Shown piece by piece: positions 9,042 through 32,705 of a DNA stretch of 64,000 nt. The notes beneath the pieces are model-generated. The model ran no database searches. It was given only the letters and a program-made list of their open reading frames with translations, and was not told the origin of the DNA. Source of the stretch: Methylocystis sp. L43 (lineage in GTDB: Bacteria; Pseudomonadota; Alphaproteobacteria; Rhizobiales; Beijerinckiaceae); NCBI RefSeq assembly GCF_015709525.1, contig NZ_JADNRA010000022.1, positions 1 through 64,000 on the forward strand, read 5' to 3'. The position numbers were made by a program, and so were the translations under genes. Position 1 is the stretch's first letter. Each line of letters begins with the position of its first letter.

Positions 9042-9117
9042 GCCGCTTTAGCTCAGCTGGTAGAGCACCTCATTCGTAATGAGGGGGTCGGGGGTTCGAA
9101 TCCCTCAAGCGGCACCA
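9042..9117 (+). tRNA. tRNA-Thr (anticodon CGT)
   Basis: Full cloverleaf: acceptor GCCGCTT/AAGCGGC, D arm GCTC...GAGC, anticodon stem CCTCA/TGAGG with loop TTCGTAA (anticodon CGT, reading ACG), T arm GGGGG TTCGAAT CCCTC, discriminator A and an encoded CCA. It is the attachment gene for the integrated element: its 3' 45 bases are repeated at 32661-32705. Confidence 0.97.
9073..9117 (+). other. attL core (45-bp direct repeat, 3' part of tRNA-Thr)
   Basis: From TTCGTAATGAGGGGG to GCGGCACCA, identical to 32661-32705. The repeat begins in the anticodon loop and ends with the CCA, the standard position for tyrosine-integrase attachment in tRNA genes. The complete tRNA is kept on this side. Confidence 0.93.
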
Positions 9118-9210
9118 TATAACTCACTGAAAACAAGAAATATTTTTTCAATAAGGCCCCATGTCTTTGATGGCCGAAAATCGCGCCGGGGCTAATTCGG
9201 GGTAAAACTT
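9118..9210. repeat. Diverged copy of the sequence following attR
   Basis: The roughly 90 bp after attL and the roughly 90 bp after attR (32706-32790) align with about two thirds identity. Shared blocks include AACTC.CT.AAAA, AAGGCCCCAT, GGCCGAAA and GGGGCTA.TT.GGGGTAAAA. One copy is inside the element and one outside, which suggests a previous element of the same integration type next to this one. Confidence 0.6.
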
Positions 9211-9402
9211 CGAAGGTGCTCAGGCCCCATGACGGCCATCTCATCCTTCAGGACATGGACCGGGGAATCGACGCACTATGCTCGCGACGGGGGCAAGCCG
9301 CTCATGAACAATTGGGCGGAGTTTGTGAATTGCACATTGAATGTCCGTAGCGGCAAAGCCATCTGACATAAAAATCGGTGGCATTCAAAAGAGTCTGAAT
9401 AC

Positions 9403-10011
9403 GTGACTAAAGCTCCAGCATATTTAGAAAACTTGCGAAAACTCACTCGGGCCGACCCGACGCCTCAAGACTTAGAAGAAATTGAGAACGAGCTATATCT
9501 CGCAAGCAGCGATCGATCCGCGGCTATAATGTGGTCCACTTACATAGAAATGGGCCTAGAACGCTTGCTTGAATCCAAGTTGCGCGACGATTTGAACGGG
9601 GATGACCGAAGGCGGATATTTGAATCGAATGGCCCGCTAGGATCGTTCTCATCAAAAATTTTGCTTGCTTACGCGATGCGCATTCTTGGGTCGAAAACGA
9701 GATTCGACCTTGATACAATCCGAATCCTCAGAAATGAGTTCGCTCATTCTCGCGCGTCGTTCTCCTTCGAGACGCCGGAAGTTCGTGCCGTTTGCGACCA
9801 GTTAAAAATTCCAGACATGCCACAGAGTCCAATTCCCTTTCCTTACCTAAACAAAGTTCCCGAGAGCCAACTGGAAAGCGCTTCCGATAAGAAGCATCCA
9901 AGGACGCGATTCATAACAACGTGCCACTCGGTCGCCTATAGAATGCAGGTTGCGAAGGATGGCGTTCGGCCAGGCGATTTTGTTTTCCCCGACGATAACC
10001 CGCTGCCCTAG
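9403..10011 (+). CDS. MltR-like (mannitol repressor family) cargo protein
   Basis: A 202-residue soluble protein, the first gene inside attL, in DNA of lower GC than the chromosome. The core GPLGSFSSKILLAYAMRILG followed by FDLDTIRILRNEFAHS matches the MltR/YggD family pattern (PLGSFSAKI...YALG...IRNxFAH). The RNEFAH segment also fits the R-x4-H signature of HEPN RNases, with the usual polar residue after Arg. MltR is a mannitol-operon repressor, but stand-alone phage-borne relatives have no known function. No mannitol genes are nearby. Cargo or defence roles are possible; the family call is by eye. Confidence 0.6.
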   Translation: MTKAPAYLENLRKLTRADPTPQDLEEIENELYLASSDRSAAIMWSTYIEMGLERLLESKLRDDLNGDDRRRIFESNGPLGSFSSKILLAYAMRILGSKTRFDLDTIRILRNEFAHSRASFSFETPEVRAVCDQLKIPDMPQSPIPFPYLNKVPESQLESASDKKHPRTRFITTCHSVAYRMQVAKDGVRPGDFVFPDDNPLP

Positions 10012-10016
10012 CACTT

Positions 10017-10358
10017 CTATTTCCCGTCAGCCGGCATCAATTCATATTTTTCCATCGCTTCCTCGCGTAGACAGCGCGAGAAGAGAGCGGGCAAAACGGT
10101 TGTCGATTCTTGCAGCGACATGCTCATAAGCCTACATCGTGCGACACGAAGGCAATATTGCTCCTGTAGTCTTCGCTGCTCGATTGTTATCTCAACGGTC
10201 ATTAGGGAGTTCGACTTCCCGAGCAAAGCCAGATTCGCCTCGTTATAGTCCTTCATGACAGCGACGCCGCACTCTTCAGCGCGGTTGTCTTTCGCGCTTG
10301 CATTTGCGCTCAGCGCCGCGAAGATAACTACCGAGGCCACCTTTTTCTTGATCGACAT
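10017..10358 (-). CDS. Hypothetical exported Cys-containing protein
   Basis: A 113-residue protein with a clear signal peptide (MSIKKK, hydrophobic core VASVVIFAALSA, cleavage probably after ANASA). The mature part of about 90 residues is helical-looking and contains four cysteines, enough for two disulfides. Convergent with the MltR-like gene, with only 5 bp between the stops. I do not recognise the family. The position suggests a cargo gene expressed from the integrated state. Confidence 0.6.
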   Translation of the reverse strand: MSIKKKVASVVIFAALSANASAKDNRAEECGVAVMKDYNEANLALLGKSNSLMTVEITIEQRRLQEQYCLRVARCRLMSMSLQESTTVLPALFSRCLREEAMEKYELMPADGK

Positions 10359-10560
10359 TCACAATCTCCGCCCCACGGATTTTATCCACAATCCTAAGAA
10401 ACCCAAGGTCGCGCCGCCGTTCGGCTTGGGCATTACAAAAGATACATTCCTGGCAGACGCGGGATTGGCTAGAGTGAACTCGTTCGCTGCGTCGCGTTTC
10501 GCGAACACCCTCGCCTTTGGACCCTTAGCCGGTCCAAAGAAGACGTTGAAAGAAAAATCG

Positions 10561-10878
10561 ATGACTATCCGATATGTAACGCGACGGCAGCATGCACGCC
10601 GGACGCGCTCGGGGCGAATCATAATCGTCCGTGAGCATCTGGCGCTCTATGACCGAGATGGCGAAGCTAGCAAGAAAAGCTATAGACACCCCTGCCCTAA
10701 ATGCGGCGCTGAGGTTGTAAGCACAAAAGTGCGAAATGGTGGTTGGATTCATTGCGAGGGCGGCAAGCGCCTCTCACACGTAAAGCACGCGTGTTTTTAT
10801 ATGGGCGATAGGCTATCGCGCAAGCGCGACGAAGACACTCCCGACCTGTTCGCCGGGCAAACAATGCCTGAACGGTAA
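10561..10878 (+). CDS. Small zinc-ribbon-like hypothetical protein
   Basis: A 105-residue basic protein, start chosen at the ATG at 10561 behind GAAAGAAAAA. The N-terminus is strongly basic (TRRQHARRTRSGR); the middle has CPKCGAEVVSTK and, 18 residues on, a further Cys in HCEGG, compatible with a zinc ribbon of which only three Cys and neighbouring His are clear. An open frame continues upstream to 10255 but overlaps the opposite-strand exported protein and lacks coding character. A nucleic-acid-binding role is a guess. Confidence 0.5.
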   Translation: MTIRYVTRRQHARRTRSGRIIIVREHLALYDRDGEASKKSYRHPCPKCGAEVVSTKVRNGGWIHCEGGKRLSHVKHACFYMGDRLSRKRDEDTPDLFAGQTMPER

Positions 10879-10893
10879 GTTCCTCTTCATAGA

Positions 10894-11050
10894 ATGCGCG
10901 CCCCACCCCGCCCACGATCGCCGACCTGCAAAGCCAAGGCGTCCGCTTGGCGCCCGCGCGTTTTGCCTGAATCGAGCTTGCCAACGTTGCGGGGTTACCC
11001 CATTCGATGCGCTGCCATGCCCTGAAAATCGACAACGCGCCTTGCTTCAA
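10894..11050 (+). pseudogene. Decayed copy of the zinc-ribbon gene at 32929
   Basis: DNA from GCC.ACC.CGCCCA through GCCGACCTGCAAAGCCAAGG and GCGCGTTTTGCCTGAATC to CCCATTCGATGCGCTGC matches 32929-33040. Translated with a frame correction it gives RAFCLNRACQRC, as in the 32929 copy. The reading frame is broken near 10950, and the C-terminal CSACG part is absent. It marks a duplication between the inside of the element and the DNA right of attR. Confidence 0.5.
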
Positions 11051-11152
11051 AAAATCGCCCGATCGCCTACATTTGGGAAACGAAGACACGAAATCCGGGG
11101 CGACGCTATCGCTCCGCGTTAGTGAAGTCCGACGAAATCGGGTGTCCGAATA

Positions 11153-11389
11153 ATGTTTAGCGCTGAGCGCCGTTCAATCGCAGCGCGGTTTGTTCGCCGT
11201 GCTTCCGAAGGCTGTCGTGGCGAGAAGTTGATCGCCGGCGTTCGCGAAGATTGCCGTGATGCGACGATACGAGATTTGGCGGCGGCTGCTTTTCTGGCAG
11301 TCACTCGGCAACATGTCGACCAAGCATCGGTTTCCGCCATTTATGACGTAGCGATTTCGCTTCGTAAGGCGAACAATCTTGGCGCATGA
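11153..11389 (+). CDS. Possible small hypothetical protein
   Basis: 78 codons from ATG with a mixed, protein-like composition and an Ala-rich helical middle (IRDLAAAAFLAVTRQHVDQ). No domain recognised. The opposite strand is also open (11119-11340), so coding status is uncertain. It precedes the NepR-like gene at 11487. Confidence 0.3.
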   Translation: MFSAERRSIAARFVRRASEGCRGEKLIAGVREDCRDATIRDLAAAAFLAVTRQHVDQASVSAIYDVAISLRKANNLGA

Positions 11390-11486
11390 TCCAAGGTGGG
11401 CGAGACCATGTCATCTGGCAAAATACTGGAATATTTCTTTGGAACAATCCCGCCTCAGGGCCGTTTGCTTTGTGGGCGGGTTTATC

Positions 11487-11675
11487 ATGACAGACAGAAA
11501 ACTGGACGATTGGCGGGTTGCCGTCGCTCGCGAGCTTGACGGCGAGTCGGGTGCCGCGCTCGAAAAAATCGGGCATCAACTGAAAATCAAGCTCGCCAAG
11601 ATCGTTGCCGAGCCTCTGCCTGCAGACCTTCAAGAGCTTGTGAGCGCGTTGGAAAACAGAATTGACGAGAAGTAA
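11487..11675 (+). CDS. NepR-like small protein (candidate anti-sigma factor)
   Basis: 62 residues. The second half, IGHQLKIKLAKIVAEPLPAD followed by LQELVSALENRIDEK, follows the NepR pattern IGxxLRxxYDxVVxEPVPDRFxxLLxxLD. NepR is the alphaproteobacterial anti-sigma factor that holds the general-stress sigma factor EcfG until phosphorylated PhyR removes it. The start at 11487 is chosen because the upstream extension to 11379 is Cys/Trp-rich and unlike NepR. The DRF motif is replaced by ADL, so binding partners may differ. No ecfG or phyR is nearby. Confidence 0.55.
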   Translation: MTDRKLDDWRVAVARELDGESGAALEKIGHQLKIKLAKIVAEPLPADLQELVSALENRIDEK

Positions 11676-11742
11676 TCGCGCGCGCCGAGAGGAGCAGCGC
11701 AGAAACGCTTAAGCCTTGGCTTGATTTGCCGCGCCTTCAAGC

Positions 11743-11782
11743 GAAAAAGGCGGCCCTGCTCTCGGTCGAAAGCAAGGCCGCC
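11743..11782 (-). terminator. Rho-independent terminator after the second NepR-like gene
   Basis: Read on the minus strand: GGCGGCCTTGC (11782-11772), a 12-base loop, GCAGGGCCGCC (11759-11749), then TTTTT. One mismatch in an 11-bp stem. It lies 70 bp after the stop at 11852. Confidence 0.75.
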
Positions 11783-11851
11783 AGCGAGGCCGGAAGAAGA
11801 GCGACGTGGGAAGGTCGTCTAACGAATAAATTTGGGTGACTTCGCCCTTCG

Positions 11852-12091
11852 TCAAGCCTCGATTTCCTGCAATCGAACGCGCTGCTCAATCTGCCGCAGG
11901 AGCTTCTCCATTGCCACAGGCAGAGGCTCGGCGACGACGCCTGAATACATGGCTCGCAAGTGGTCGGCGATAGTCGTGACCCTCGTATTATCGAGTAAAC
12001 GTCGCTTATAATTTTTGTTATTCGTCAACACTGTCCGGTTCTCCCTTTCAGGACATATAATTCCTGAAGCGCGCTCACGGTTCCGCTTCAA
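11852..12091 (-). CDS. NepR-like small protein (candidate anti-sigma factor)
   Basis: 79 residues. After a basic N-terminus, VTTIADHLRAMYSGVVAEPL followed by PVAMEKLLRQIEQRVRLQ closely follows the NepR core (IGxxLRAMYDxVVxEPVPDRFxxLLxQLE). The two NepR-like genes face each other across a terminator region, and their cores share VAEPLP. The family role is sequestration of the ECF sigma factor EcfG; that a phage element would use it to damp the host stress response is inference. The residues normally occupied by DRF are VAM. Confidence 0.65.
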   Translation of the reverse strand: MKRNRERASGIICPERENRTVLTNNKNYKRRLLDNTRVTTIADHLRAMYSGVVAEPLPVAMEKLLRQIEQRVRLQEIEA

Positions 12092-12182
12092 AGACGGAAC
12101 GGCCCGCGCCTATTCGACGCGGGCTGCCCCCTCCCTCGCGGTATGATTGATCCACCGCCGCGCGATTGAGTTCGGAAGTGCC

Positions 12183-12217
12183 AAAAAAAACCGGCCCCGC
12201 CATTGCTGACAGGGCCG
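12183..12217 (-). terminator. Rho-independent terminator, minus strand
   Basis: Minus strand: CGGCCC (12217-12212), loop, GGGCCG (12197-12192), then a run of eight T (12190-12183). It would stop transcripts coming from the gene at 12557-12979. The gap 12092-12373 otherwise holds no convincing gene. Confidence 0.75.
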
Positions 12218-12373
12218 AAGGCTCGATAGAGGCCCGCCGTCTGTCCCGACAGCGAGCGTCGAGAGTGTCGCGCGACGAGGGCGGGGGCGTCAAATTCCTT
12301 TAGCCGGTAGACGCACATCTTCTCGTGCTGATAGCGTTGCTATCCTAACGCAGAGCACGGGCGCGGGGGTGTT

Positions 12374-12625
12374 GTGTCAATTATCTTTGAGTTTTTCCGT
12401 GAATCGCCTGACAACGAGCGCATCAGTCTCGCGACCGAAAAGAGAAATATCCGGACAGCTGACACCGCGGTATCCTACGCACGCGGCGCCCTAAACAATG
12501 TTTTGTTTAACGGAGAAATGGCCGATGTCTGCTCAATCAGAACCCAAAAAGGGCTACTAATTTGCGAGGTGAGAAGTGCCGCTCGCCGGCCGCAAAAGGC
12601 GCGGGAAACAATTTCGAGCTTGTGA
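12374..12625 (+). CDS. Small hypothetical protein
   Basis: 83 residues from a GTG start. N-terminus SIIFEFFRESPDNERISLAT, then a helical segment (TADTAVSYARGALNNVLF) and a C-terminal strand-like part (ADVCSIRTQKGLLICEV). Resembles short alpha/beta proteins common in Hyphomicrobiales mobile DNA, but I cannot name the family. Its 3' end overlaps the convergent gene at 12557 by about 70 bp. Confidence 0.4.
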   Translation: MSIIFEFFRESPDNERISLATEKRNIRTADTAVSYARGALNNVLFNGEMADVCSIRTQKGLLICEVRSAARRPQKARETISSL

Positions 12626-12979
12626 TGGGGTGTCGCCCTCATAGCTACCAGAGACAACCACCTTCGTCCTGATTTCATTCGCTGCTTCGCTCACACATTT
12701 ATCAAAGTGTGCGCTCGCAACGCCTTCGTAATTCTTGTTGAGCAAATCCTGCACACACCGCTCGCAGCTAATCAGATACGCGAGTGCCAATGGCGGAACG
12801 GACTCAATACTCGTTAGATCGGCCGCCTCTTGCCATTCTCGTTCGAACAATTGGCGCGCAAAACCGGGTAACGCTTCCGCAACGGATGACCTGAAGCGTT
12901 CCCGGAGCTTTCTCGCCGCGTCTTCAAAATGCTCGACGGCTTCGTGACTCGGCGGAAGCGAAACTGGACGCAAGCTCAT
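12557..12979 (-). CDS. Hypothetical protein, paralogue of the gene at 13307
   Basis: 140 residues. It shares two blocks with the protein at 13307-13660: V.E.LP.FAR..FE near the N-terminus (SSVAEALPGFARQLFE) and FDKCVSEAANEIRTKV in the second half (against FNDCAQAAALEIKAAI). The first block also recalls the VxEPLPxxxxxLL core of the neighbouring NepR-like proteins. Otherwise unrecognised; probably cytoplasmic and helical. It ends in a Pro/Ser-rich tail. Confidence 0.5.
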   Translation of the reverse strand: MSLRPVSLPPSHEAVEHFEDAARKLRERFRSSVAEALPGFARQLFEREWQEAADLTSIESVPPLALAYLISCERCVQDLLNKNYEGVASAHFDKCVSEAANEIRTKVVVSGSYEGDTPSQARNCFPRLLRPASGTSHLAN

Positions 12980-13306
12980 AATACGCTCCCATGTGGGGGC
13001 ACGACGTAATGTCTTGGCCTTGAAACAATTGTCTAATAGATATCTTAGCTTACACGGAACGGGGACGCAAGCTTATGTAAGTTCCCCTAAGCATTGCACG
13101 TTGTTTAGCGCGGGACGTGCCGCCAATCAGGCCGCGAGCGTCAACCGTGAAAAGGCCTCGCCTGTGAGGGCGAGGCCTATGCCAGGGGGAAATTGGTATC
13201 GCTCAACACAGCAATATTGCGCTGTCTGCGCCTGCCCGTCAACGGCATGGCTCTAATTCACGTTATTTTTCCCCAACTTATCCGACATGCGCCTTTGTCG
13301 TTGCGA
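12980..13306. other. 327-bp gap with one strong hairpin
   Basis: No convincing gene. It contains the presumed promoter of the minus-strand gene at 12557-12979 and the perfect 10-bp hairpin at 13153-13178. An open frame at 12993-13256 has no protein-like features. Confidence 0.45.
13149..13178 (-). terminator. Perfect hairpin, probable terminator
   Basis: AGGCCTCGCC (13153-13162), 6-base loop, GGCGAGGCCT (13169-13178): a perfect 10-bp stem. On the minus strand it is followed by TTTTC, so it probably ends transcription of the gene at 13307-13660. Confidence 0.65.
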
Positions 13307-13660
13307 TCAATCCTCTTTCGTGGCGCTGGGTGGCCTAACGCTGTCTTCGTCATCCCCGATCGCGGCCTTGATTTCCAGCGCAGCGGCTTGGGCGCAGTCA
13401 TTGAATGACCGATCGGCGTCGACCTTGAAAGCCGCGTCCATCGCGAGCCATGCGCTGCGACGATGTTTGTGCACGATTTCCGCCAAGGGATGCGCCGCGC
13501 TGTCATCGTCGGCATTCATCGCCGCTTCAAGCGCGCGCCGCGCGAAGGACGGCAGCCGCTCGTAAACCGCGCATTCAAACGCGGCGGCGAACATTCGATT
13601 TGCGACAATCGCTTCGTCAACGGCCGGCTCAATCGTGGGGCGTGTAGGCGTATCCGTCAT
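13307..13660 (-). CDS. Hypothetical protein, paralogue of the gene at 12557
   Basis: 117 residues, helical, with acidic ends. It contains AVYERLPSFARRALEAAMNA and FNDCAQAAALEIKAAI, matching blocks of the 12557-12979 protein, so the two arose by duplication. No known domain recognised. It is transcribed alone, between its own upstream region and the hairpin at 13153. Confidence 0.5.
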   Translation of the reverse strand: MTDTPTRPTIEPAVDEAIVANRMFAAAFECAVYERLPSFARRALEAAMNADDDSAAHPLAEIVHKHRRSAWLAMDAAFKVDADRSFNDCAQAAALEIKAAIGDDEDSVRPPSATKED

Positions 13661-13990
13661 GATTTGGGCTCCTAACGTTTGGAAGAAATTCAGGCGGCTC
13701 GCAATTCCGTGACAGCCTAAAGCTTAGGTAGACGTATTCGTGTGGCGCGGTCAAGCTTATTCCAGCATAAATGTTGTCATGTGATGTATAGCGTCCGTTT
13801 CTACATGTCACAACATTCCCACAACAAAGCATAGAGACGAAAAAAGCGCCGCCAACCTTTCGGCTAGCGGCGCTTCCTACCTCTCAGGAGATTTTGCTTG
13901 ATCCTGTGGGCAGCATGACTGCGCTCGTTTGCAACGCGCCGGGCACTGCCCACAGGTTCGCCGTCAAGCGCGACGTGGAGTCTTGCCCGG
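13661..13990. other. Intergenic region with inverted repeat and operon terminator
   Basis: Contains an imperfect inverted repeat, AATGTTGTCATGT (about 13770-13782) and ACATGTCACAACATT (13803-13817), in AT-rich DNA upstream of the gene at 13307, which may be an operator; and the terminator at 13838-13876. No gene seen. Confidence 0.45.
13838..13876 (-). terminator. Terminator of the structural operon
   Basis: Minus strand: AAGCGCCGC (13875-13867), loop TAGCCGAAAGGTTG, GCGGCGCTT (13852-13844), followed by TTTT. A perfect 9-bp GC-rich stem with a U-tract, 115 bp after the last structural gene. It shows that the structural transcript really ends here. Confidence 0.85.
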
Positions 13991-14179
13991 CTATTCGTGA
14001 AACTTGGAAATTTCTGTAAATCGTTCCGCGCGCAGATGGCGTGGTGTTCGCAAATAGGCAATCACGTCGCGGGCGCCGAGATAGACACCGAAAGCAAAAC
14101 ATGTCGCCGCAAACCACACAAACGCCGTCACGATCGCGACGCCGATCTGCGCCGCAAGAGGCAATTCGGCGACTGTCAT
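13991..14179 (-). CDS. Small single-span membrane protein
   Basis: 62 residues from the ATG at 14179, which overlaps the stop of the upstream gene (ATGA). One long hydrophobic segment (IGVAIVTAFVWFAATCFAFGVYLG, residues about 9-32) is followed by a basic tail. It is the last gene of the structural operon, a position where holins are sometimes found, but there is no endolysin and only one span, so the holin idea is weak. Confidence 0.55.
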   Translation of the reverse strand: MTVAELPLAAQIGVAIVTAFVWFAATCFAFGVYLGARDVIAYLRTPRHLRAERFTEISKFHE

Positions 14180-14571
14180 GGCTGCGGCTTCCCCAAGCAC
14201 TTTATCTCGCACTCAATGCGCGAAAGCCCGTCGTCGCTCACGCTCGCGACTTCATACATCTGCCCGTCACAAAGTCTTTTGATCCGGTCGCCACGATGGA
14301 TTGCCCAAGGCAAATCGAGGCGAGAGAAGCTGGCGCAGAGCGGAGCCGTTTCGACTCGCGCGTGAAGCGCGTTGCCGGCCATCTCAAATCCGAGATGGGA
14401 TTTCTGCGCGATCACGCCCGTTATGGTGACGGCCTTGTCGGCGTAAGGCTCCGCCGCATAGTTCGGCCGCGCGGCACATGGCGTGAGTTCTAAAGTTTCG
14501 CCGAATGCATTATTGATCGATTGCGAGACGCGCGCCATGCCGGCGCGCCAGTTCGAATTGACGAAGCTCAT
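14176..14571 (-). CDS. Putative phage head-tail attachment (FII-like) protein
   Basis: 131 residues from the ATG at 14571, with GGGAGG at a good distance; a GTG at 14580 would sit on the ribosome site. N-terminal helix SQSINNAFGETLELTP, then beta-rich body with ITGVIAQKSHLG and IHRGDRIKRLCDGQMYEVAS, as in small FII-type head-tail joining proteins (a nucleotide or metal is not involved; it plugs the head-tail interface). It follows the tape measure gene directly. Assignment is by size, position and pattern. Confidence 0.5.
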   Translation of the reverse strand: MSFVNSNWRAGMARVSQSINNAFGETLELTPCAARPNYAAEPYADKAVTITGVIAQKSHLGFEMAGNALHARVETAPLCASFSRLDLPWAIHRGDRIKRLCDGQMYEVASVSDDGLSRIECEIKCLGKPQP

Positions 14572-14585
14572 TGGCCCCACCTCCC

Positions 14586-16907: not shown

Positions 16908-16959
16908 GGAGAAAAACCCTCCGGCCCCATGGGGCGATTATCATGCGTGAAAAATAAAG

Positions 16960-16980
16960 AGCGCGCCTATGCAGCGCGCT
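16960..16980 (-). terminator. Weak hairpin at the end of gpE
   Basis: AGCGCGC (16960-16966) / GCGCGCT (16974-16980), followed on the minus strand by CTTTATTTTTC. A possible partial terminator that would lower tape measure expression relative to the chaperone. Confidence 0.4.
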
Positions 16981-17098
16981 CGCGTTCACGATCCTTAACG
17001 AGTTTGCTCAAATTACTGGCCCACCAAAGCAGTTCGCTCAAAGTGAGGTCGTCGATAGATTGAGGGCTCCAATGCAAATCCAGCGCGAGAGTCGCCAT
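16967..17098 (-). CDS. GpE-family phage tail protein
   Basis: 43 residues, starting MATLALDLHWSPQSIDDLTL and ending in a basic RERERAA. The pattern xxWxPxxIxxLTLxELxxW is that of the tiny P2 gpE / GpE family, encoded just before the tape measure in P2- and Mu-like phages, often as a frameshift partner of the chaperone. Here it is a separate gene 11 bp after the chaperone stop. It acts as a tail assembly factor with the tape measure. Confidence 0.75.
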   Translation of the reverse strand: MATLALDLHWSPQSIDDLTLSELLWWASNLSKLVKDRERERAA

Positions 17099-17109
17099 GA
17101 TGCGCGGGA

Positions 17110-22379: not shown

Positions 22380-22892
22380 TCATTCCTCCATAGCGAATGC
22401 GTCGAGGTCGGCGAGCGCGGCGAGCGCGGCTCGGCATTCGTCTTCGATCGCAGCCGCGACTTTCTTGGCGTCGGATTCGCCCGCTAGGCGCGGCGCCACC
22501 TTCGGCCCCACGGCCATGAATGCGACCTTGGCGCGTGCAATCAGGTCGGCGACGGTCGCGGCGACGGTTTCACGATCAAGCAAGGAATTTTCGAGCTTCT
22601 GATTTTGCAGGCGGAGCTTTCGAGCATGCTCTTCGGCGATTTCTCTCTTCGCTTGGATAAGCGCGCGCCGGGCGTCGTCGTCGGCTTGCTTTGCCGACGT
22701 TGAGTCGTATCGATCGCGCAGCGTGGACTCTTCGTCTATTCGAAGTTTGATCGCTGCGCGCGCTTCGTCGCCGGGAAAGCTCTTGTCGTGCGCCCTCGGG
22801 ATTTGAGCTTCGTCTAGCCAACCTTTGATGGTTGTGTGCGGCTGATGAAATTCGTTCATCAGCGCCGTTATGCCGATCCGGGTTGGCTCCAT
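22380..22892 (-). CDS. Terminase small subunit (Nu1-like)
   Basis: 170 residues with an N-terminal winged-HTH-like part (IGITALMNEFHQPHTTIKGW, residues 7-26), a charged coiled coil (RREIAEEHARKLRLQNQKLE-like, residues 85-110) and a helical C-terminus, as in lambda Nu1 (DUF1441-type). It recognises the packaging start site; a cos site would be expected close by, probably in 22893-23423. It directly precedes the large subunit. Confidence 0.8.
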   Translation of the reverse strand: MEPTRIGITALMNEFHQPHTTIKGWLDEAQIPRAHDKSFPGDEARAAIKLRIDEESTLRDRYDSTSAKQADDDARRALIQAKREIAEEHARKLRLQNQKLENSLLDRETVAATVADLIARAKVAFMAVGPKVAPRLAGESDAKKVAAAIEDECRAALAALADLDAFAMEE

Positions 22893-24014: not shown

Positions 24015-24018
24015 AGCG

Positions 24019-25117: not shown

Positions 25118-25119
25118 AA

Positions 25120-25329: not shown

Positions 25330-25400
25330 CCCTTTCCAAATAGGGGTCGGATAATTTCATTGCGAATCCCGATTGTCTATCGCGGATACCGTAATCCGCG

Positions 25401-25670
25401 TCAGGCCAACAAACCCCACTTCGCGACTTGCGCGATATCGCCGCCGTCGAGATAAGTTTCGGCCGGCGCCGGATCGGCCTCGGGCGCCTCGCCGCGAGCG
25501 AACGCCTCGATTTGATCGGCCGTCCATTTCGGCCAGCCGCGGGAGCGGCAAGACACCGGCCGCGGAAAGAGTCCGTCCCGGCGCCAGTTCCGAATCGACT
25601 GAGCGGAGCAGCCTAGAAGGCGCGCGGAAGCGGCGACGCCTAGAAGGCGCCGCGCTTTGTCGGTCGTCAT
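25401..25670 (-). CDS. AlpA / MerR-like HTH DNA-binding protein
   Basis: 89 residues with an N-terminal helix-turn-helix: LGVAASARLLGCSAQSIRNW, then RRDGLFPRPV and WTADQIEAFARG. This is the AlpA/MerR-type fold used by phage and satellite regulators and excisionases. It is the first gene of the minus-strand operon that runs toward the terminase genes, so it may control it. A second protein of the same type is at 30840. Confidence 0.75.
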   Translation of the reverse strand: MTTDKARRLLGVAASARLLGCSAQSIRNWRRDGLFPRPVSCRSRGWPKWTADQIEAFARGEAPEADPAPAETYLDGGDIAQVAKWGLLA

Positions 25671-26331
25671 GTTTTCGAATTCCTATGCGCGAACACCATC
25701 GCGCCGAGGCGATCGGCGCGTTTCGAGTGTGCGATTTTTGGGGGAATGACGGCGAAGTGGCCATAAAGGCACACTTCTAACCGTCTTGAGTTTAGGCAGT
25801 TGACATAGCATAAGTCAACGGTTGCGGCGGATATTTTTGGCGATTTCAGCGGTTTGTCTATATACGACTGATTTGAAAGTGATTTGTCTGTGCGATTCTC
25901 AGTTCGGCGGCGCAACGCCGTTGGAAAGCGCGGCTTTAGAGCCCCTGCCCCGGCGCGCTGGCGAACGCGAGACAGGCCGAACGCTGTGCCGGCGAGCGTA
26001 GCGGCCGGGGCGCGGGCTTGCATAGGCATGACCCGCCGGAAGAGTCGCTCGCGGCCCGCCACGGCGTCTGACGATCCTCGGCGCGGCTTGGGTTGCTCGC
26101 TTCGGGCGTCGCGACACCTCCGGCCGCGATCGGCGCTTCGGGGGGCGGCCGGAACCAATCTGCAAACGTTCAGTCCCCAAATTCGAGCGCGGCTTGTGGC
26201 GCGCCTCGCCCCCTTCTTTTTCGAACATGCGGCGCGGTCGTCATACGCCCCCCGCCTCTCCGCTCTTTCGCGGAGGCGATATCCTCTCCTGGGGGTCTCT
26301 TCGCCAGAAGATAGAGACCCTCTTTAGAGGG
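25671..26331. other. Control region upstream of the AlpA-like gene
   Basis: No convincing gene. It holds AT-rich DNA with a repeated GATTTG/TTTGTCT motif near 25848-25890, likely the promoter-operator of the minus-strand operon, and an 8-bp hairpin GGGTCTCT (26293-26300) / AGAGACCC (26313-26320). The open frames at 25884-26327 (+) and 25667-26158 (-) are Arg-rich and look like chance frames in GC-rich DNA. Confidence 0.4.
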
Positions 26332-26588
26332 GCGAGGTTGGCGAGGTCGCGCGAAATGGGGTTATTATTATGAAATATCAATCATTTATCCCGATCGAAA
26401 ATTCGGGCAAAAAGCCAGGTTTTCATCTTGCTTCGGGCGAGGTTGTGTAAGTCATTGATTTTAAGAAATATAAACCTCGCCAATTTCGCGGGGCGAGGTT
26501 TGGCGAGGTCCAGCCTTTTACCGGCAAACGCCTTATTCTTCTGAGGACAGAACCTCGCCAACGCATTTTCGCGACCGTGGGCGAGGTT
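26332..26588. repeat. Iteron-like GCGAGGTT array, candidate replication origin
   Basis: Eight copies of an 8-bp unit in 257 bp: GCGAGGTT at 26332, 26437, 26493 and 26581; GCGAGGTC at 26341 and 26503; the inverse AACCTCGC at 26473 and 26551. Two pairs form perfect hairpins, AACCTCGCC/GGCGAGGTT at 26473-26500 and GAACCTCGCC/GGCGAGGTTC at 26550-26589. AT-rich stretches (26360-26400, 26455-26472) lie between them. It sits 10 bp beyond the primase-helicase stop, as origins do in P4-like satellites and some phages. Confidence 0.65.
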
Positions 26589-26598
26589 CGTTTTCGAC

Positions 26599-29442
26599 CT
26601 ATCCGGCGTCCGCGGCTGTCTCGTCTTCGTCGTCAACCGGCGTGAAGCTCGCCCCGGTCGCGTCCGGCTTAGGCGTAAAACTTAGGGTCGGCGGCGTCCG
26701 TTGGCCGGGCGCAGCATGATATCGCAGCGTGCCGGCGCCCGTCGTGCGCTCCACTTTGTCCGCCTTTCCGAAAAGCTCCCTTTTGATCCGTCGCGCGCGG
26801 TGTCCGTTCGTATCGTCAAACGCGTCGAGTGGAATTCCGGCCTTTTCCAAAACCGCGTCAATCTCATGCTCGCCCGGCCCCATGACGACGAGCGCGTCAA
26901 CGATCTTCTGCGCCGCGGGCGACAACCCGGCGTCCAAATGAACGATCACTGGCACCGGCACCGTTGACCGCTTGTTCGCGCCGACTTGCACGGTGCGACG
27001 TTCGATGTAGGTCGGGCGCCAGTTTTTCAGCGCGAGATTATTTTTCGCCGCGTCAATGCGCGCGTAGCGCCCGCGATCTTGCGGCGGGATGTTCAGTTGC
27101 TTCGCTTCGTCATCAGTCAAACTAAACATCGTCCGAACTATACGCGCCACGCCGGTTTGAGACGACGCGCCCCGAAGGACGTGCATGTTACCGGCGTGAC
27201 CGGCAGACGATGCGCCGTCCGGCTTCCGCGGATGCGCGATCAAAGCAACAGACGTATTTGCTTCCGCCGCGACAGACCGCGCGCTGGCCCAAACTTTCGC
27301 CATGGCGCTGTTATCGTTCTCGTCAACTTCATGAAGCTCTTGCACAGGGTCCAGCATCACGACGCCGATACCGTATTGCTTCACACAGGCGACGGTTTCC
27401 GCCAGTTCCGCCGGGGGCTCGACTCGTCCCTTGCTGTTTTCCAGCGCCAGCAACAAGGGGTTTCCGACGCCAGAAGTCATGTAGAGCCGAAAGCCGTTTG
27501 TGCCGTCAATCGCCGACCACGGCACATTTAGTTCTTTGAGAACGCCAGCAAGACGCCGGTCGAGCGCATCCTTGTCGTCTTCCTGGCAGTGATACCAAAC
27601 GTTCGTCCGTTTAAAGTCCGTCGCAACATCTTCTGGCGCAATGCCTAAGAGGTCCGGCCGGCCGGCGACAATGGCGACGCATTCGACCAAGCCGCGCGCC
27701 GACTTCGAAACACCGCCGTCGCCCACAAGCGCGCTGACGACGCCGCGGCAATAATCCTGAAAGGCGACCCAAGGCACGTCGGGAAGGTCGTCAAGATCAC
27801 GCCTCGCGACTGGGATAGGCAAAACCGGCGGGCGGGCGCCGTTCACGTATCGAACCGGCTCGGCGTGGGCAGGCAACTCGCCATCTTCGACAAGCGCGCG
27901 CAACTGCGCCAGACGCTCTGCCGCGTCTGCCCCTTGTGGTTGGCGAATGATCGTATTGACCGCGCGATGCGCCGCGAGCATGGCTTCCTTGTCATCCGCA
28001 AAGCGTGCATCGCTTTCCAGGGCAGCAAGCAAGCCCGGACCCGAAACCGCTGGCAGCGCGTCCGGTTCGCCGAAAATATCGTCGTCGCCCGTGAACAGGG
28101 CACCCTGTTCGAAGGTTGCGAAACGTTGGCGCGTCGTGGATTCCGCTTTTTGCTGGCGCTTCCTTTCCTGGCGCTCCGGGAGCGCGCCATCGGGCTCGGC
28201 GATCGAGTCGAACGCCTTGCCGCCCGCGGTCGCGACCTTCGCGCCAAAACCGTTGCGCGCGCTCCGGTATCCTTCTTCCAACTTCACGGCGATTTCCAAA
28301 ACTGTGAAATCGTCCGTCTCGGCAAATGGATTCTCGCCCTCATGTTCCGCAGCCAACTCTTCGCGAATCTCGGCAATCCGCGCGAGCTTCCTTTGTGCAT
28401 CGGCAGCCGTGAAACCGCGATCGGTCAGCATGTCGCGCAACATTTCATCATGATCTTCGTCGGGCATGGCCCAAGCGAGCGTCACGGCCTCGGCGAGTTC
28501 CGGCGAAATGCCATAGTCGCTAAAATCCGCGCCCGCATAGACGATCGAAAGGTGACGGCTGTTGCCCGCGTGCTCCAATCTGCGCGTCGCCAGCTTTTCG
28601 ATTGCATCGCCGAGCGCGTCGGGATCGTCAATCGTGACGCCCTCGGGCGCGGCGAAACCGCGTGCCTTGCCGACCTTGCTGATAGGATCAGGGAGCGCGT
28701 CCGGCACGTTCGCGCAGGGCTTGCCGTCGATAAGCAGCCAACGCTCGGGGCATGGATCGGCGCCGCCCTCTACGATCGGATTGGCGATATAGACCGGCTG
28801 GACGCGACGCCAAATTGAGGGATCGAGCGTCGAGACTTCAATTTCCTTGCCGTCCTTTCGCTTGCGAATCGTTTTCGGCAATGTGTCGGGCGCTATGAGC
28901 CATGCCGACTTCTGATTTTCGGTCACAGGTTTGTCGGCGAAGAAAAAGAGCCTAAACGACTGCTGGCCTTCCTTCGTATTGAACCCGCTGGACGCTTGGG
29001 CGAGGCAACTCGCGTCGTGAAATTCGGCCGGCAAAAGCGCGCGATATTCCTTCGCGGCTTCGTCAAGCGACCGCGCGTTTGTCGTGAACCCGTCGATATC
29101 GAGCACGATCAGCCGCAAGGCTTGATCGGAGAAAAACTCATTGCGCCGCTCGCAATCGATGCGGGGCGTATCCGGTAGCGCGGCGCCGTGAATGAGAATT
29201 TCGTCCCGGCCTTCGTGCAGCAACGCATAGAGGTCGTCGACGCCCGCAACTTCACGCGTGAGGCGTCGAAAGGTTTTAGCGTTCGCGGCCGGCTCCTTAC
29301 GGATTCCGTCCGGCGTATGAATGAGCCGTTTGCCCGTGAAAACCTTGGGCCGCAGGATCGTGATTGTGTCTTTGGCTTCCGGCGAAGACTTATGTGTGTC
29401 GGAAGGCGTCAGGATAGGCTTGACAACAGTGCTGGTATTCAA
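26599..29442 (-). CDS. Primase-helicase (AEP-like primase plus RecA-type helicase domain)
   Basis: 947 residues. The N-terminal third looks like a prim-pol type domain: LIVLDIDGF with an Asp-x-Asp pair (115, 117) and, further on, GQQSFRLFFFA. The C-terminal third is a RepA/RecA-type ATPase: a slightly unusual Walker A VGDGGVSKS near residue 575, Walker B GVVMLDPVQEL near 697, and ALIAHPRKPDG with the sensor His. Such proteins open and prime an element's own origin. The iteron-like array at its 3' side supports autonomous replication after excision. It ends in an acidic tail. Confidence 0.8.
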   Translation of the reverse strand: MNTSTVVKPILTPSDTHKSSPEAKDTITILRPKVFTGKRLIHTPDGIRKEPAANAKTFRRLTREVAGVDDLYALLHEGRDEILIHGAALPDTPRIDCERRNEFFSDQALRLIVLDIDGFTTNARSLDEAAKEYRALLPAEFHDASCLAQASSGFNTKEGQQSFRLFFFADKPVTENQKSAWLIAPDTLPKTIRKRKDGKEIEVSTLDPSIWRRVQPVYIANPIVEGGADPCPERWLLIDGKPCANVPDALPDPISKVGKARGFAAPEGVTIDDPDALGDAIEKLATRRLEHAGNSRHLSIVYAGADFSDYGISPELAEAVTLAWAMPDEDHDEMLRDMLTDRGFTAADAQRKLARIAEIREELAAEHEGENPFAETDDFTVLEIAVKLEEGYRSARNGFGAKVATAGGKAFDSIAEPDGALPERQERKRQQKAESTTRQRFATFEQGALFTGDDDIFGEPDALPAVSGPGLLAALESDARFADDKEAMLAAHRAVNTIIRQPQGADAAERLAQLRALVEDGELPAHAEPVRYVNGARPPVLPIPVARRDLDDLPDVPWVAFQDYCRGVVSALVGDGGVSKSARGLVECVAIVAGRPDLLGIAPEDVATDFKRTNVWYHCQEDDKDALDRRLAGVLKELNVPWSAIDGTNGFRLYMTSGVGNPLLLALENSKGRVEPPAELAETVACVKQYGIGVVMLDPVQELHEVDENDNSAMAKVWASARSVAAEANTSVALIAHPRKPDGASSAGHAGNMHVLRGASSQTGVARIVRTMFSLTDDEAKQLNIPPQDRGRYARIDAAKNNLALKNWRPTYIERRTVQVGANKRSTVPVPVIVHLDAGLSPAAQKIVDALVVMGPGEHEIDAVLEKAGIPLDAFDDTNGHRARRIKRELFGKADKVERTTGAGTLRYHAAPGQRTPPTLSFTPKPDATGASFTPVDDEDETAADAG

Positions 29443-29512
29443 TATATGAAACTCCGGTTATTGCTACGATACTTGCCCGGCCACGCCCACAAGCGTCGCC
29501 GGGCTTTTTATT

Positions 29513-30148
29513 TCACTCGGCCGCAGCCGCTTCCGCCTCTCGGAACCGTGCATGCATCGCCTCTATTTCTGACCGCGCGATATCGGCGAAGTTCGGATCA
29601 TCCGACGTGACAATTTCCTCGGCGAACGCTAGTTCGCGCGACTCGCTTCCCGGCGGCGCGAAGTCGAGTCGCAACACGCCATCGGCGTCGGGCGTCAACG
29701 TTGGCCAGCCGGCCTTGCGAAATTCTGACCGTTGGCGTTTGGCAAGCCATTCGTCGAATTTGAAAGCAGAGTTGCGCCGCCAATTCTGCGCGAAGCCTTC
29801 GGCGTCAATGACGATATCGGCTTGGACTGGCGGCCCGACGTGGATCGGCTCGGGCGCTTCGCCCAGACGGATGCGCCAAGCGAGCACAGGATGATATGTC
29901 GGCGCGAGGAGTCCGCCTTCGGGCTTAATTTCGACGACGGCCCAACCGGGCGCCGCGCCAACGATCGCTTCGGCCGGCGGAGAGTCCAGGTCGGCGAGGT
30001 CGCCAAGAAACCAAGCGTCGCGCGTCGGCTCGCGGAAATAGATCAGATGGCCTTGCGCCTCACGTTCAGTCGCGACGTTCTTGATTGAGGCGCGCGGAAA
30101 CATCCGCGCGTCGCCATGTTCAGAGACAAGGTTTATGAAGTCCGTCAT
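29513..30148 (-). CDS. Hypothetical protein of the replication operon
   Basis: 211 residues from the ATG at 30148 (a Met four residues earlier is possible). Beta-rich first half (HLIYFREPTRDAWFLGDLAD and WAVVEIKPEGGLLAPTYHP) and a helical acidic end (FADIARSEIEAMHARFREAE). I do not recognise it. It lies directly downstream of two overlapping small genes and upstream of the primase-helicase. Confidence 0.6.
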   Translation of the reverse strand: MTDFINLVSEHGDARMFPRASIKNVATEREAQGHLIYFREPTRDAWFLGDLADLDSPPAEAIVGAAPGWAVVEIKPEGGLLAPTYHPVLAWRIRLGEAPEPIHVGPPVQADIVIDAEGFAQNWRRNSAFKFDEWLAKRQRSEFRKAGWPTLTPDADGVLRLDFAPPGSESRELAFAEEIVTSDDPNFADIARSEIEAMHARFREAEAAAAE

Positions 30149-30160
30149 TCGTAAAACCAT

Positions 30161-30364
30161 TCAATGTGCCGTGCTGGCGTCGTTTACCAGTTCAAGCTGG
30201 CGCAGCCGCGCCGCCTCTCGAAACAGGTCGAAATGTTCAAAGGTCGCATCGGCCGCAGCGCCTTCGGCGAGCGCAAGGAATTCGCGCTCGCTGATATCAC
30301 GTAGGAAGGGTTTGAGATGGCGGCGCGGCAGGTGTCGCCAGATTGGGAGTCGCGCGGTTGTCAT
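30161..30364 (-). CDS. Small hypothetical protein
   Basis: 67 residues from the ATG at 30364, which overlaps the stop of the preceding gene (ATGA). Basic N-terminus (MTTARLPIWRHLPRRHLK) and helical remainder. Unrecognised; the tight coupling supports its being real. Confidence 0.5.
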   Translation of the reverse strand: MTTARLPIWRHLPRRHLKPFLRDISEREFLALAEGAAADATFEHFDLFREAARLRQLELVNDASTAH

Positions 30365-30840
30365 GCGGCGACTCCACGATCCCGCGCCAGGATTTCTCGC
30401 GTCGGCGGCTCCGGTCGGTTTTGACGCCACGCGCGCAAGTCACGCAGCGCGGCTGCGAGCGCGTCGGCGGCAGCAACCGGATAAGTATCGGGTAGAAGGC
30501 GGAGCGCCTTGCTCAGCACGCGCGGAACGCCGTGGCGCAGCGACGCGACGAAGGAAATCAACCGGGGGGATTCATACGCGTCGAGAGCGGCCTTGCCGTC
30601 GAGGATAGCGAGAATCCGTTCAACTCGCGCAAGCCGCTCGGCGTGCTGTTCCAACATGTGTTCGCCATAGCTGAAAGCGGATTTTCCATAGTATCCGTCT
30701 GACAGTGCGCGGCCTTCGTCCACGATGTAGGTCGCGGGCGGCCATGTGAGCGCATAGCGCTGCTCTTCGTTGAGCGTTTCGCTCTTGCGAGCGGCGGCGA
30801 GGGCGGACTCGAATTGCGAGCGTGTGGTTCTGATGGTCAT
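30361..30840 (-). CDS. Hypothetical protein
   Basis: 159 residues, mostly helical: an N-terminal FESALAAARKSETLNEEQRY, then YIVDEGRALSDGYYGKSAFS and VERILAILDGKAALDAYE. Start codon overlaps the stop of the AlpA-like gene. No known family recognised. Confidence 0.55.
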   Translation of the reverse strand: MTIRTTRSQFESALAAARKSETLNEEQRYALTWPPATYIVDEGRALSDGYYGKSAFSYGEHMLEQHAERLARVERILAILDGKAALDAYESPRLISFVASLRHGVPRVLSKALRLLPDTYPVAAADALAAALRDLRAWRQNRPEPPTREILARDRGVAA

Positions 30841-31061
30841 TACGCCACCTCGCCAACAAGAAACCGTTCAATCGCCGGACCAGACCAGCGCCTCCGGCCG
30901 GGCAACGGCAGTGGCGGCGGCAGCGCCCCCTTGTTCGCCCAAATATTGATGGCGTCCGGCGTCACGCGGAAATGCTGCGCGAGGTCGTGTGTGTCGTAGA
31001 CGGCCGGCAAGCGCGGCTCTGCCGCCGCCGACTTTTCGTTTAGGTTCTGTTGGGTTCGCAT
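30840..31061 (-). CDS. AlpA/excisionase-like HTH protein
   Basis: 73 residues with a MerR-type HTH: YDTHDLAQHFRVTPDAINIW, then ANKGALPPPLPLPGRRRW and GPAIERFLVGE. It starts 220 bp beyond the integrase stop on the same strand and leads the small-gene operon toward the primase-helicase. The position and size suit an excisionase (directionality factor) or AlpA-type activator. Confidence 0.7.
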   Translation of the reverse strand: MRTQQNLNEKSAAAEPRLPAVYDTHDLAQHFRVTPDAINIWANKGALPPPLPLPGRRRWSGPAIERFLVGEVA

Positions 31062-31280
31062 ATTCTGCGCCTCCTACATGGCGCGCGAACGGAACCACTG
31101 AGACACCCCGCGCGCCGGTAGGATGTAGGTGGTTCGCGTTCGCGCCCGTGAAGGCGCTGACAGGATCGGCCTTGAAACCAATCCAGCGAGCCTGCGATTA
31201 GCTCGCCTTTTCGGCTCGCGGGCTTTGCCGCGTTTGGCCGAACAATGTTCAAATAAATTCGTTGTCGTTGTCGGTCAAGA

Positions 31281-32489
31281 CTATGTGGCGACAATTTTTT
31301 CAATTCGGTCCAGGTCGGCGGCGACGATGCGCAAAATACGCCTCTCGATCCGCTCAACGGCGTCGCGTTTTTCCTCAAGCATCGTGTGCCGATCGTATGT
31401 CGCGGTCACGTCGGCGAAGCTGTGATTCAGAAGCGCCTTCACCGCGTCGCGCGGCGCGCCTTCCGCGCGGGCCAGTGTCGCGGCCGTTCGTCGGAGGTCG
31501 TGTGGCGAGAAGCGCGCCAGGGAATATTGCGCGCAGATGCGCCGTGTCGCTTGCGAGAGTGAATGGCGCGCGATTGGGGCCGTCGACTCGTATCGCGAAA
31601 CGAAAACCGCCTCGCCTGCCCCAATGGCGTCCGTTTCCGCAATGGCTGCATCGATAGCGGCAAGAGCAGCCGCTGAGAGCGGGACAATGTGTGTTCGACC
31701 GTTCTTCGCCTTCTCCCGTGGAATTGTCCAAACGCGATCATTCCGCGCGAGTTCGCTGCGCATCATCGTCGCGACTTCGCCCGGCCGCGCCGCGGTCAGT
31801 AGTATTGTCTTCAGCGCAAGCCGAATAATCTTGATGGCCGGCGCCGCATCATCTTCGAGGGCGCGCCAGAACGCCCGCAATTCGTCGTCCGACAACACTC
31901 GGTCTTTGGGCGTCTCTCTACCGCCAAACTTGCGCGCGCCTGCCAACGGGTTTGCAGCCAATAGGCCATCATCCACTGCGTGCCCGAGCAAGGTCCGAAG
32001 GACGGATTGCATCCGATTGGCGGACGTTGGGGCGGTTTTTGCAATGCCGTTGAGAAGCTCCGCAAAATCGGCGCGCGACAGACGCGCGGCATTGCGCGAG
32101 CCTAATTCCGCGGTGGCGCGCTTGAGATATTCCGCGTCCAATTTCCAGGAACGTTTGCGGCCTTCGATTTGCGCGAGATAGCGATCGGCGAGCGCCTGGA
32201 ATGTCAGCTTGGCGCCCTTGTCTGTTCTATGCCCCTCGCCGTCAGCAAGGTGCGCGCGGATTTCATCGGCGCGCCTTCGTGCGGTTGCGAGTCGCATCGC
32301 AGGCCAGCGACCGAGCTTGACCCGCCGAACCTTTCCATCGACTCCGGCGCCGCCAACGAAATAAAAAGTGCGGTCGTTCGGCGACGCGCGAAGCCGCAGA
32401 CCCTTGCAACCGGCGTCGGCAAGTTCGATCCGCTTCCCCTCCGGCACCACCATCTCTTTGAGCTTCGTTTCGGTCAGCGCCTCGCCCAT
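31281..32489 (-). CDS. int: Tyrosine site-specific integrase
   Basis: 402 residues of the P4/phage type with an N-terminal arm-binding domain (residues 1-90, DUF4102-like: LRLRASPNDRTFYFVGG), a SAM-like core-binding domain and the catalytic domain. Catalytic residues: Arg235 (TAARPGE), Lys about 262, His330 and Arg333 (HDLRRT), His356 (LLNHSF) and the nucleophile Tyr365 (TATYDRH). It integrates the element at tRNA-Thr. Its 5' end faces attR 170 bp away. Confidence 0.95.
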   Translation of the reverse strand: MGEALTETKLKEMVVPEGKRIELADAGCKGLRLRASPNDRTFYFVGGAGVDGKVRRVKLGRWPAMRLATARRRADEIRAHLADGEGHRTDKGAKLTFQALADRYLAQIEGRKRSWKLDAEYLKRATAELGSRNAARLSRADFAELLNGIAKTAPTSANRMQSVLRTLLGHAVDDGLLAANPLAGARKFGGRETPKDRVLSDDELRAFWRALEDDAAPAIKIIRLALKTILLTAARPGEVATMMRSELARNDRVWTIPREKAKNGRTHIVPLSAAALAAIDAAIAETDAIGAGEAVFVSRYESTAPIARHSLSQATRRICAQYSLARFSPHDLRRTAATLARAEGAPRDAVKALLNHSFADVTATYDRHTMLEEKRDAVERIERRILRIVAADLDRIEKIVAT

Positions 32490-32660
32490 CGTCCCCCGGC
32501 CCCTTCATGATTCGACACCATCACACGTTACGGTAAAATTAGCCCGGGGGCTAAAATTTTCTGCCGAATGGGGCTGAAGGTAGGCAATTGCGACTGAATG
32601 CTTCCTTGTTTTTCAGCTAGTTATGGTGGTAGTCGGTTTGCGTCGGCAGCCCGAGCATGG
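32490..32660. promoter_or_regulatory. Integrase promoter / att arm region with palindrome
   Basis: 171 bp between the integrase start and attR. It contains AAAATTAGCCCGGGGGCTAA, a palindrome centred near 32548 whose AGCCCC/GGGGCTA half-sites also appear in the arms at about 9192 and 32771. Such repeated half-sites are what integrase arm-type or excisionase sites look like. No gene. Confidence 0.45.
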
Positions 32661-32705
32661 TTCGTAATGAGGGGGTCGGGGGTTCGAATCCCTCAAGCGG
32701 CACCA
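32661..32705 (+). other. attR core (45-bp repeat of the tRNA-Thr 3' part)
   Basis: Identical to 9073-9117. The bases just before it (GAGCATGG) do not rebuild the tRNA anticodon stem, so only the attL side has a complete tRNA. Confidence 0.93.

Follow-up and report, generated by a model that had tools for sequence, protein, structure and literature searches.

The 64,000 nucleotides of Methylocystis sp. L43 analysed here (contig NZ_JADNRA010000022.1, positions 1 to 64,000; hereafter 'the window') hold an integrated element of 23.6 kb, att-bounded as an earlier note made from the sequence alone had claimed: it is enclosed by a perfect 45-bp direct repeat (9073-9117 and 32661-32705) that coincides with the end of a tRNA-Thr gene. 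Read along the minus strand, the element encodes an integrase, an AlpA/excisionase-type regulator, a primase-helicase, a tail completion/Neck1 protein, the small and large terminase subunits (TerS and TerL) and a protein of 132 amino acids (aa), followed by a portal, a gpW-like adaptor, a 245-aa protein, a tail assembly chaperone, a gpE-like open reading frame (ORF), a tape measure and a gpFII-like attachment protein (Table 1). Every gene named in the earlier note, from integrase to tape measure, is present, and its list is lengthened by the 132-aa scaffold homologue, the gpFII-like and the tail completion/Neck1 genes; the chain of overlapping genes that it described runs from TerL through the 245-aa gene, TerS stopping 3 bases before TerL. 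Two smaller claims found no support: where an iteron-like array had been suspected, Tandem Repeats Finder gives two arrays of just 2.0-2.4 copies, and the supposed terminator at 13838-13876 consists of two 5-pair hairpins in a scan that is as a whole at chance level (27 hairpins found, 27.9 expected). We consider it likely that the element represents a novel type of phage satellite, one that would build the axis of a virion and have the shells of a helper phage assembled around it. Support for this reading, which rests on sequence and agrees with the earlier suggestion of a larger satellite with its own motor, portal and tail ruler and a borrowed shell, comes from a single origin, purifying selection, the scaffold homologue and two proteins with ends that match a phage.

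Table 1. Features of the integrated element (positions in the window; E values follow family names)
Feature	Position	Strand	Evidence
tRNA-Thr (CGT), integration target	9042..9117	+	ARAGORN; complete gene, its 3' part 9073-9117 is attL
gpFII-like head-tail attachment protein, 134 aa	14176..14580	-	PF05354 0.0012, below family cut-off
Tail tape measure protein, 773 aa	14586..16907	-	phrog_1533 3e-19; PF10145 9e-15
gpE-like small ORF downstream of chaperone, 43 aa	16967..17098	-	reading frame
Tail assembly chaperone, 98 aa	17110..17406	-	phrog_166 3e-4; 45% to G267 phage chaperone
Second, probably scaffold-like protein, 245 aa	17441..18178	-	hhalign to scaffold family; dN/dS 0.33
gpW-like head-tail adaptor, 106 aa	18175..18495	-	phrog_17985; family HMM
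Lambda-type portal, 553 aa	18492..20153	-	PF05136 3e-40; satellite clade; dN/dS 0.08
Scaffold homologue, 132 aa	20140..20538	-	phrog_17040 9.5e-4; family HMM
Terminase large subunit TerL, lambda-type (GpA), 612 aa	20538..22376	-	PF05876 9e-71, PF20454 3e-56; dN/dS 0.08
Terminase small subunit TerS	22380..22892	-	phrog_57 4e-12; 94% to G261, dN/dS 0.11
Tail completion / Neck1 protein, 213 aa	23424..24065	-	phrog_27 3e-9; kept upstream of TerS in relatives
Primase-helicase-like protein, AAA_25 domain, 947 aa	26599..29442	-	PF13481 8e-22; phrog_906
AlpA/excisionase-type helix-turn-helix regulator, 73 aa	30840..31061	-	phrog_66 2e-4; MerR_1 1.8e-4
Tyrosine integrase, 402 aa	31281..32489	-	PF00589 5e-22; phrog_1
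attR, perfect 45-bp copy of 9073-9117	32661..32705	.	repeat comparison

The shells themselves are missing. When all 61 ORFs of more than 100 aa in six frames, and altogether 70 of the 136 ORFs of at least 60 aa, were scanned against PHROGs, none matched a major capsid, tube, sheath, baseplate or lysin family, as the earlier note had maintained, and no scanned unassigned ORF of the element matches any capsid family. The sole protease match is a weak one, of the 132-aa gene in its scaffold-like portion to a head maturation protease family, and a weak tail spike match (E 0.016) of the gene adjoining the primase, 29513-30160, is taken for chance. Some of the smaller assignments draw on relatives: homologues of the gpW-like protein in genomes G272 and G071 match phrog_75, head-tail adaptor Ad1 (1e-8 and 4e-4), and the profile hidden Markov model (HMM) of its family matches small ORFs adjoining the portal in full phages. 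The gpE-like ORF is assigned by its motif and presumably belongs to that family; four other loci, searched by pattern for such an ORF, gave none.

Relatives with the same gene order, likewise without a capsid, occur in Methylocystis, Rhodoblastus, Bradyrhizobium and IMG/VR contigs, so that the family spans methanotrophs to Bradyrhizobium. In G261 (apparently the contig of L058, Methylocystis suflitae NLS-7) identity is 95% for both TerL and portal, and portal identity is 37% in G071 (apparently L060, Rhodoblastus acidophilus MO) and 35% in G272; further members come from a Methylocystis metagenome-assembled genome (L059), Bradyrhizobium neotropicale (L061), another family of the order (G361) and IMG/VR contigs. 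The G071 satellite has a 47-bp repeat at a tRNA-Pro, its copies 21.6 kb apart, and that of G272 a 16-bp repeat, part of an apparent tRNA, with copies 21.3 kb apart. An order-wide draw gave portal matches at 1e-30 in 6 of 397 genomes, the window's own included; of the other five, three were classified, G361 as a satellite and G499 and G607 as loci with both capsid and protease, the remaining two being G341 and G108. Another draw gave portal matches in 3 of 385 genomes (the window's own, G908 and G891), and weak matches also occur in G142 and G202. A hand-picked part of the relatives' ORFs was compared with PHROGs, 59 ORFs in a first scan (among the matches listed, the best 25 of 59 families) and 39 in a second (38 of those 59 and one more), for which all 20 families are listed; among the matches listed, no unassigned ORF was assigned to a capsid family.

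A census covered 118 loci, 8 of them without a portal match. Every ORF of at least 50 aa in them was compared with a set of profile HMMs, which represented portal, TerL, capsid, S49 protease, scaffold, gpW, FII, Neck1, tube, sheath, chaperone, tape measure, hub and the family of the 245-aa protein. In the 22 loci that hold both a portal and a downstream tape measure the interval between the two forms two peaks: at 1.39-2.31 kb in 15 loci, 0/15 with a capsid, tube or sheath match, and at 7.0-10.1 kb in 7 loci, 7/7 with all three, the latter amounting to about 5 distinct loci (L039/L040 and L109/L110 are near copies). The portals of L101-L103 are near-identical as well. The capsid HMM was made from five lambda-type capsids and would miss other capsid families, which the PHROG scans cover for the window. 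The capsid-less gene set that the earlier note proposed to look for elsewhere is found. Of the two results that by its account would have refuted it, a capsid block between the same flanking genes in relatives is absent from 15/15 short-interval loci, and a capsid-family match of an unassigned ORF did not arise among the ORFs scanned. Counted more widely, 21 loci (several of them partial contigs) are taken as satellites, 0/21 with a capsid match and 3/21 with an S49 match. Repeats of the same contigs were left out of the census (L099, L034, L076, L149, L181, L058, L060, L176, L180, L182 and L183), as were L062, G341, G108, G687, G677 and G287; one draw of relatives kept 80 of 123 loci. An unrooted portal tree of 49 rows places all 18 satellite portals in one clade with support 100/100, three of these rows (G272, L059 and L075) being called satellite with no tape measure in view; it omits the near copies L098, L104, L106, L110 and L129, three of the four loci of L123-L162, and contigs assignable to neither satellite nor full phage. 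On the strength of the tree, the simplest reading would be that the satellites are one old lineage.

These observations bear directly on the most obvious alternative, that of a decaying, defective prophage from which the genes for capsid, tube and lysis have gone. The element is indeed made of prophage genes, with essential ones missing, and no resident helper was found; against this, the same genes are absent in 15/15 short-interval loci, the satellite portals form one clade, and the packaging genes are under purifying selection, with ratios of non-synonymous to synonymous substitution (dN/dS) between the window and G261 of 0.08-0.33 for the seven genes where it was computable (the chaperone not among them) and no internal stops in the genes compared. 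Relaxed selection, scattered losses and relatives with the lost genes, the features of a defective prophage, are not seen here, and on dN/dS, census and portal tree we rejected decay as very improbable.

An HMM of the family of the 132-aa protein, run on 5,560 ORFs of 48 full-phage loci with a cut-off of 0.01, gave 37 matches, one per locus (one row of the underlying alignment, L105, is out of frame): 32/37 are the S49 protease, the highest-scoring stretch lying within the final 40% of the protein in 32/32, and 5/37 are the ORF directly after that protease, whose start is offset by -3 to +24 bases from where the protease gene stops. In these phages the scaffold part is therefore either the C-terminal region of the protease or a separate gene, and by homology the 132-aa protein is a relative of the C-terminal part of the S49 prohead protease or of the separate gene behind it. 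A separate gene behind the protease is the place of the lambda scaffold Nu3. A second HMM, which covers the C-terminal 35 or so residues of the scaffolds of satellites (one row, L103, is cut at the wrong place), has one match among the 5,560 ORFs (E 1.3e-7, the next being 0.89), and this falls on residues 420-444 of the 445-aa protease-scaffold of a prophage in genome G267 of the window's own genus.

The 245-aa protein occupies the place of the protease-scaffold in the gene order, and is probably a second scaffold-type protein, judged by profile comparison; it is the weakest link of the set. It has no Pfam or PHROG match, hhalign relates its family to the scaffold family (probability 83.5, E 8e-6), and its HMM reached at best 0.0017 against full phages when made from six rows (3,192 ORFs) and 0.023 when made from 14 (5,560 ORFs), the latter giving no match below 0.01. 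Our first suspicion, that it might be a tail tube, was dropped, sequence and profile comparison pointing instead to a relative of scaffolds.

The G267 prophage was found through the tape measure. A search of the genus with the window's tape measure matched 6/39 genomes, G267 at the C-terminus, and there the genes for S49 protease, decoration, capsid (phrog_29), sheath, tube, chaperone, tape measure and, directly after the tape measure, hub make up a complete phage with a lambda-type head and a contractile tail, although the ends of the prophage were not found. The two tape measures (773 and 778 aa) share 67/78 C-terminal residues; at the nucleotide level, ungapped identity reaches 0.72-0.80 in the final 240 bases of the gene, as against 0.17-0.33 before that end and 0.26 after it, and this is the sole DNA match between the regions compared. 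With dS 1.26 and dN 0.10 (dN/dS 0.08), the match therefore appears to be of old date and maintained by selection. The chaperones resemble each other at 45%, and the gpFII-like family HMM matches a G267 phage gene at 5e-17. As G267 was chosen by its tape measure, only the scaffold C-terminal match is an independent match to it.

A second case is provided by the G361 satellite, whose tape measure (840 aa) is at residues 718-833 44% identical to residues 722-837 of that of the full phage L109 (845 aa; 124 C-terminal columns), and elsewhere 26% over 223 columns. Satellite tape measures of G261, L101, L102, L103 and L105 match G267 at the C-terminus only, at 45-49%; those of G071, L061, L032, L097, L099, L100, L178 and L179 have no C-terminal match to the full phages compared. 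The window's tape measure C-terminus matched none of 50,697 phage records, and IMG/VR, scanned with the tape measure as the only query protein, gave no match.

From these parts a life cycle may be proposed. Integrated at a tRNA gene and equipped with its own primase-helicase, the satellite would supply TerS, TerL, portal, adaptor, attachment and tail completion proteins, chaperone, tape measure and one, probably two, scaffold-type proteins. Once a helper phage is active, satellite portal and scaffold would start proheads built of helper capsid protein, for which the scaffold would compete through a C-terminus resembling the helper's own, and satellite terminase would fill such heads with satellite DNA through the satellite portal. 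The tape measure of phage 80alpha contacts the tail completion protein with its N-terminus and Tal, at the baseplate tip, with its C-terminal helices (PMC11661146). By the same token, the C-terminus of the satellite tape measure could fit the helper's baseplate hub while its N-terminal end meets the satellite's own tail completion protein, so that it would organise helper tube and sheath into a tail. Gene content, the absences found by profile search, conservation, selection, the single clade and the two C-terminal matches are observations; dependence on a helper, packaging, any change of capsid size and the identity of the helper are what we infer from them. It seems to us rather more probable than otherwise that this is a family of single origin in which the axial and nucleating parts (motor, portal, connectors, scaffold and, in most members, tape measure) are the satellite's own and the polymerising parts the helper's. 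Two short plugs that can be exchanged would keep satellite and helper compatible, one at the C-terminus of the scaffold, which would fit the helper capsid, and one at that of the tape measure, which would fit the helper baseplate. If so, a satellite could change helpers by swapping plugs, the contacts that decide whose genome enters a particle would be revealed, and head and tail assembly would be found to have very short, testable specificity elements; a tape measure chimera would be the direct test of which of its ends sets compatibility.

Several results weigh against this picture. The helper prophage that the earlier note would have sought in the same genome did not appear, neither Phage_cap_E nor the G267 S49 protease (at 1e-20) having a match there, and the G267 protease itself is found in 1/39 genomes of the genus. 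Among the full-phage loci, 11/48 have no match to the scaffold HMM, a remnant in G272 included. The tape measures of the window and G267 are also similar internally, at 27% in a stretch of 91 residues. In 11 genomes of the genus of G071 and 12 of that of G361, searches with the tape measure yielded no C-terminal match to a full phage, only one weak internal match, in G517. An S49 protease is kept in three loci called satellites, L032 and L177, which belong to the 15 short-interval loci, and the partial L098. Lastly, the G272 relative has no match for tape measure, chaperone, FII or Neck1, from which it follows that the tail part is dispensable for the satellite family.

Since no fitting helper was found in the window's genome and the G267 protease is so sparsely distributed in the genus, the helper probably comes from outside, as for many satellites. 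For satellites from Methylocystis, phages of the G267 type, with lambda-type head and contractile tail, would be the foremost candidates; relatives of the G267 protease, at 36-40%, occur in three more genomes of the genus (G272, G057 and G287). A lambda-type capsid with S49 protease also stands upstream of the G272 satellite (L070:945-3327, about 1215945-1218327 of G272 contig C1), in a 39-kb stretch with no portal or TerL match that is a remnant or another partial element. As a helper of the G272 satellite this remnant was rejected, its protease matching neither the scaffold HMM nor the C-terminal one.

Another explanation is that the element, a satellite or prophage remnant, persists because it interferes with invading phages: portal, scaffold and tape measure would poison their assembly, and the element itself would never be packaged. 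Interface-matched scaffold and tape measure could act as assembly poisons too, and the two roles are compatible with each other; an integrase, att sites, a replication protein and a strongly selected TerS-TerL pair nevertheless point to mobility and packaging, and we hold interference alone to be highly unlikely. That an HK97-type head cluster on contig C9 of the window's genome (G000), presumably a gene transfer agent, should supply the capsid is scarcely credible: although this is the one Phage_capsid locus there, with a phrog_10 major head protein, it belongs to a different capsid family, the S49 protease-scaffolds to which the scaffold is homologous are those of lambda-type phages, and the phage matched by both C-termini, that of G267, has a phrog_29 capsid.

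The satellites known to us borrow everything, resize the capsid that they borrow, or make their own capsid and use foreign tails; one that supplies the core and obtains head and tail shells alike from a helper would, if real, add a strategy to these. Att repeat, integrase and gene content mark the element as presumably mobile and without a full virion gene set, as satellites are. Integrase, AlpA-like regulator and primase, which phage-inducible chromosomal islands (PICIs) of the SaPI and Gram-negative types also have, are present, but the packaging of PICIs by the helper's large terminase probably does not apply, as the element brings its own TerL. Capsid-forming PICIs (cf-PICIs) likewise have an integrase and a replication gene. 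SaPI1 uses its helper's large terminase, portal and tail, whereas the element brings its own terminase, portal, neck and tape measure. It resembles SaPI1 in the scaffold: CpmB of SaPI1 binds the helper capsid via a C-terminus shared with the scaffold of that helper, 80alpha, with an RIIK motif (PMC5644958), and the satellite scaffold shares a C-terminal segment, putatively capsid-binding, with the G267 protease-scaffold.

The cf-PICIs have their own TerS, TerL, portal and head-tail connectors and take tails from the helper (PMC10690885). The first four are present in the element too, but a cf-PICI makes its capsid and protease and borrows tails only, whereas the window's element has no capsid or complete protease, tube, sheath or baseplate, and does have a tape measure; HNH endonuclease, another cf-PICI feature, gave one 0.009 match among 40 element ORFs in scans not aimed at it. 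P4 with P2, and AH14b with AH14a of Pseudomonas, combine integrase, AlpA-like regulator and primase with a foreign shell and no capsid of their own (PMC4936722, PMC10690885); the three genes and the lack of a capsid recur here, the foreign shell probably too. P4, however, is packaged by the P2 terminase (PMC10690885) and the element has its own; no PHROG or Pfam match named sid or psu, both P4 genes, arose in the general scans, none of which was aimed at them. For AH14b the authors report finding no terminase or lysis gene and detecting no virion proteins of its own, and it has a homologue of its helper's tail assembly protein I. The Streptomyces satellites Mulch and Flayer share terminase, portal, scaffold and adaptor with the element, but encode a major capsid protein as well, and the words 'tape measure' are absent from the main text that describes them (PMC10690885). 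A satellite that has a portal and a tape measure and lacks a capsid was not among the matches listed for open PubMed Central papers, which leaves novelty unproven.

Some relatives and neighbours deserve mention in their own right. The Methylocystis metagenome satellite (L059:3895-9312) is a mosaic, with a TerL 35% identical to the window's and portal, gpW-like and 245-aa proteins at 94-96%; satellites therefore seem to recombine between TerL and portal. The G361 satellite encodes a decoration protein of the lambda gpD type (L034:5588-6004, PF02924 1e-12), and no capsid gene was found there. Plasmid pNSM5TCa of Paracoccus sp. SMMA_5_TC (L092; NZ_CP102356.1, 5412-22007) holds an integrase, a toprim protein, a TerL 35% identical to the window's, a portal and a protease/capsid fusion, with no annotated tail genes in the stretch, and looks like a cf-PICI related to the window's TerL lineage. 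Bradyrhizobium japonicum plasmid pS11L-1 (L091) has TerS and TerL (34%) followed by transposases, with no portal annotated, and is probably a phage remnant. Within the element, a 9-pair hairpin with 7 G-C pairs, followed by a T-rich run, lies between chaperone and tape measure (16959-16981, minus strand; from the same scan, overall at chance), and the 202-aa gene adjoining attL (9403-10011, plus strand; phrog_22031, weak MtlR match) has a counterpart in the G272 satellite that is 64% identical and adjoins the integrase gene.

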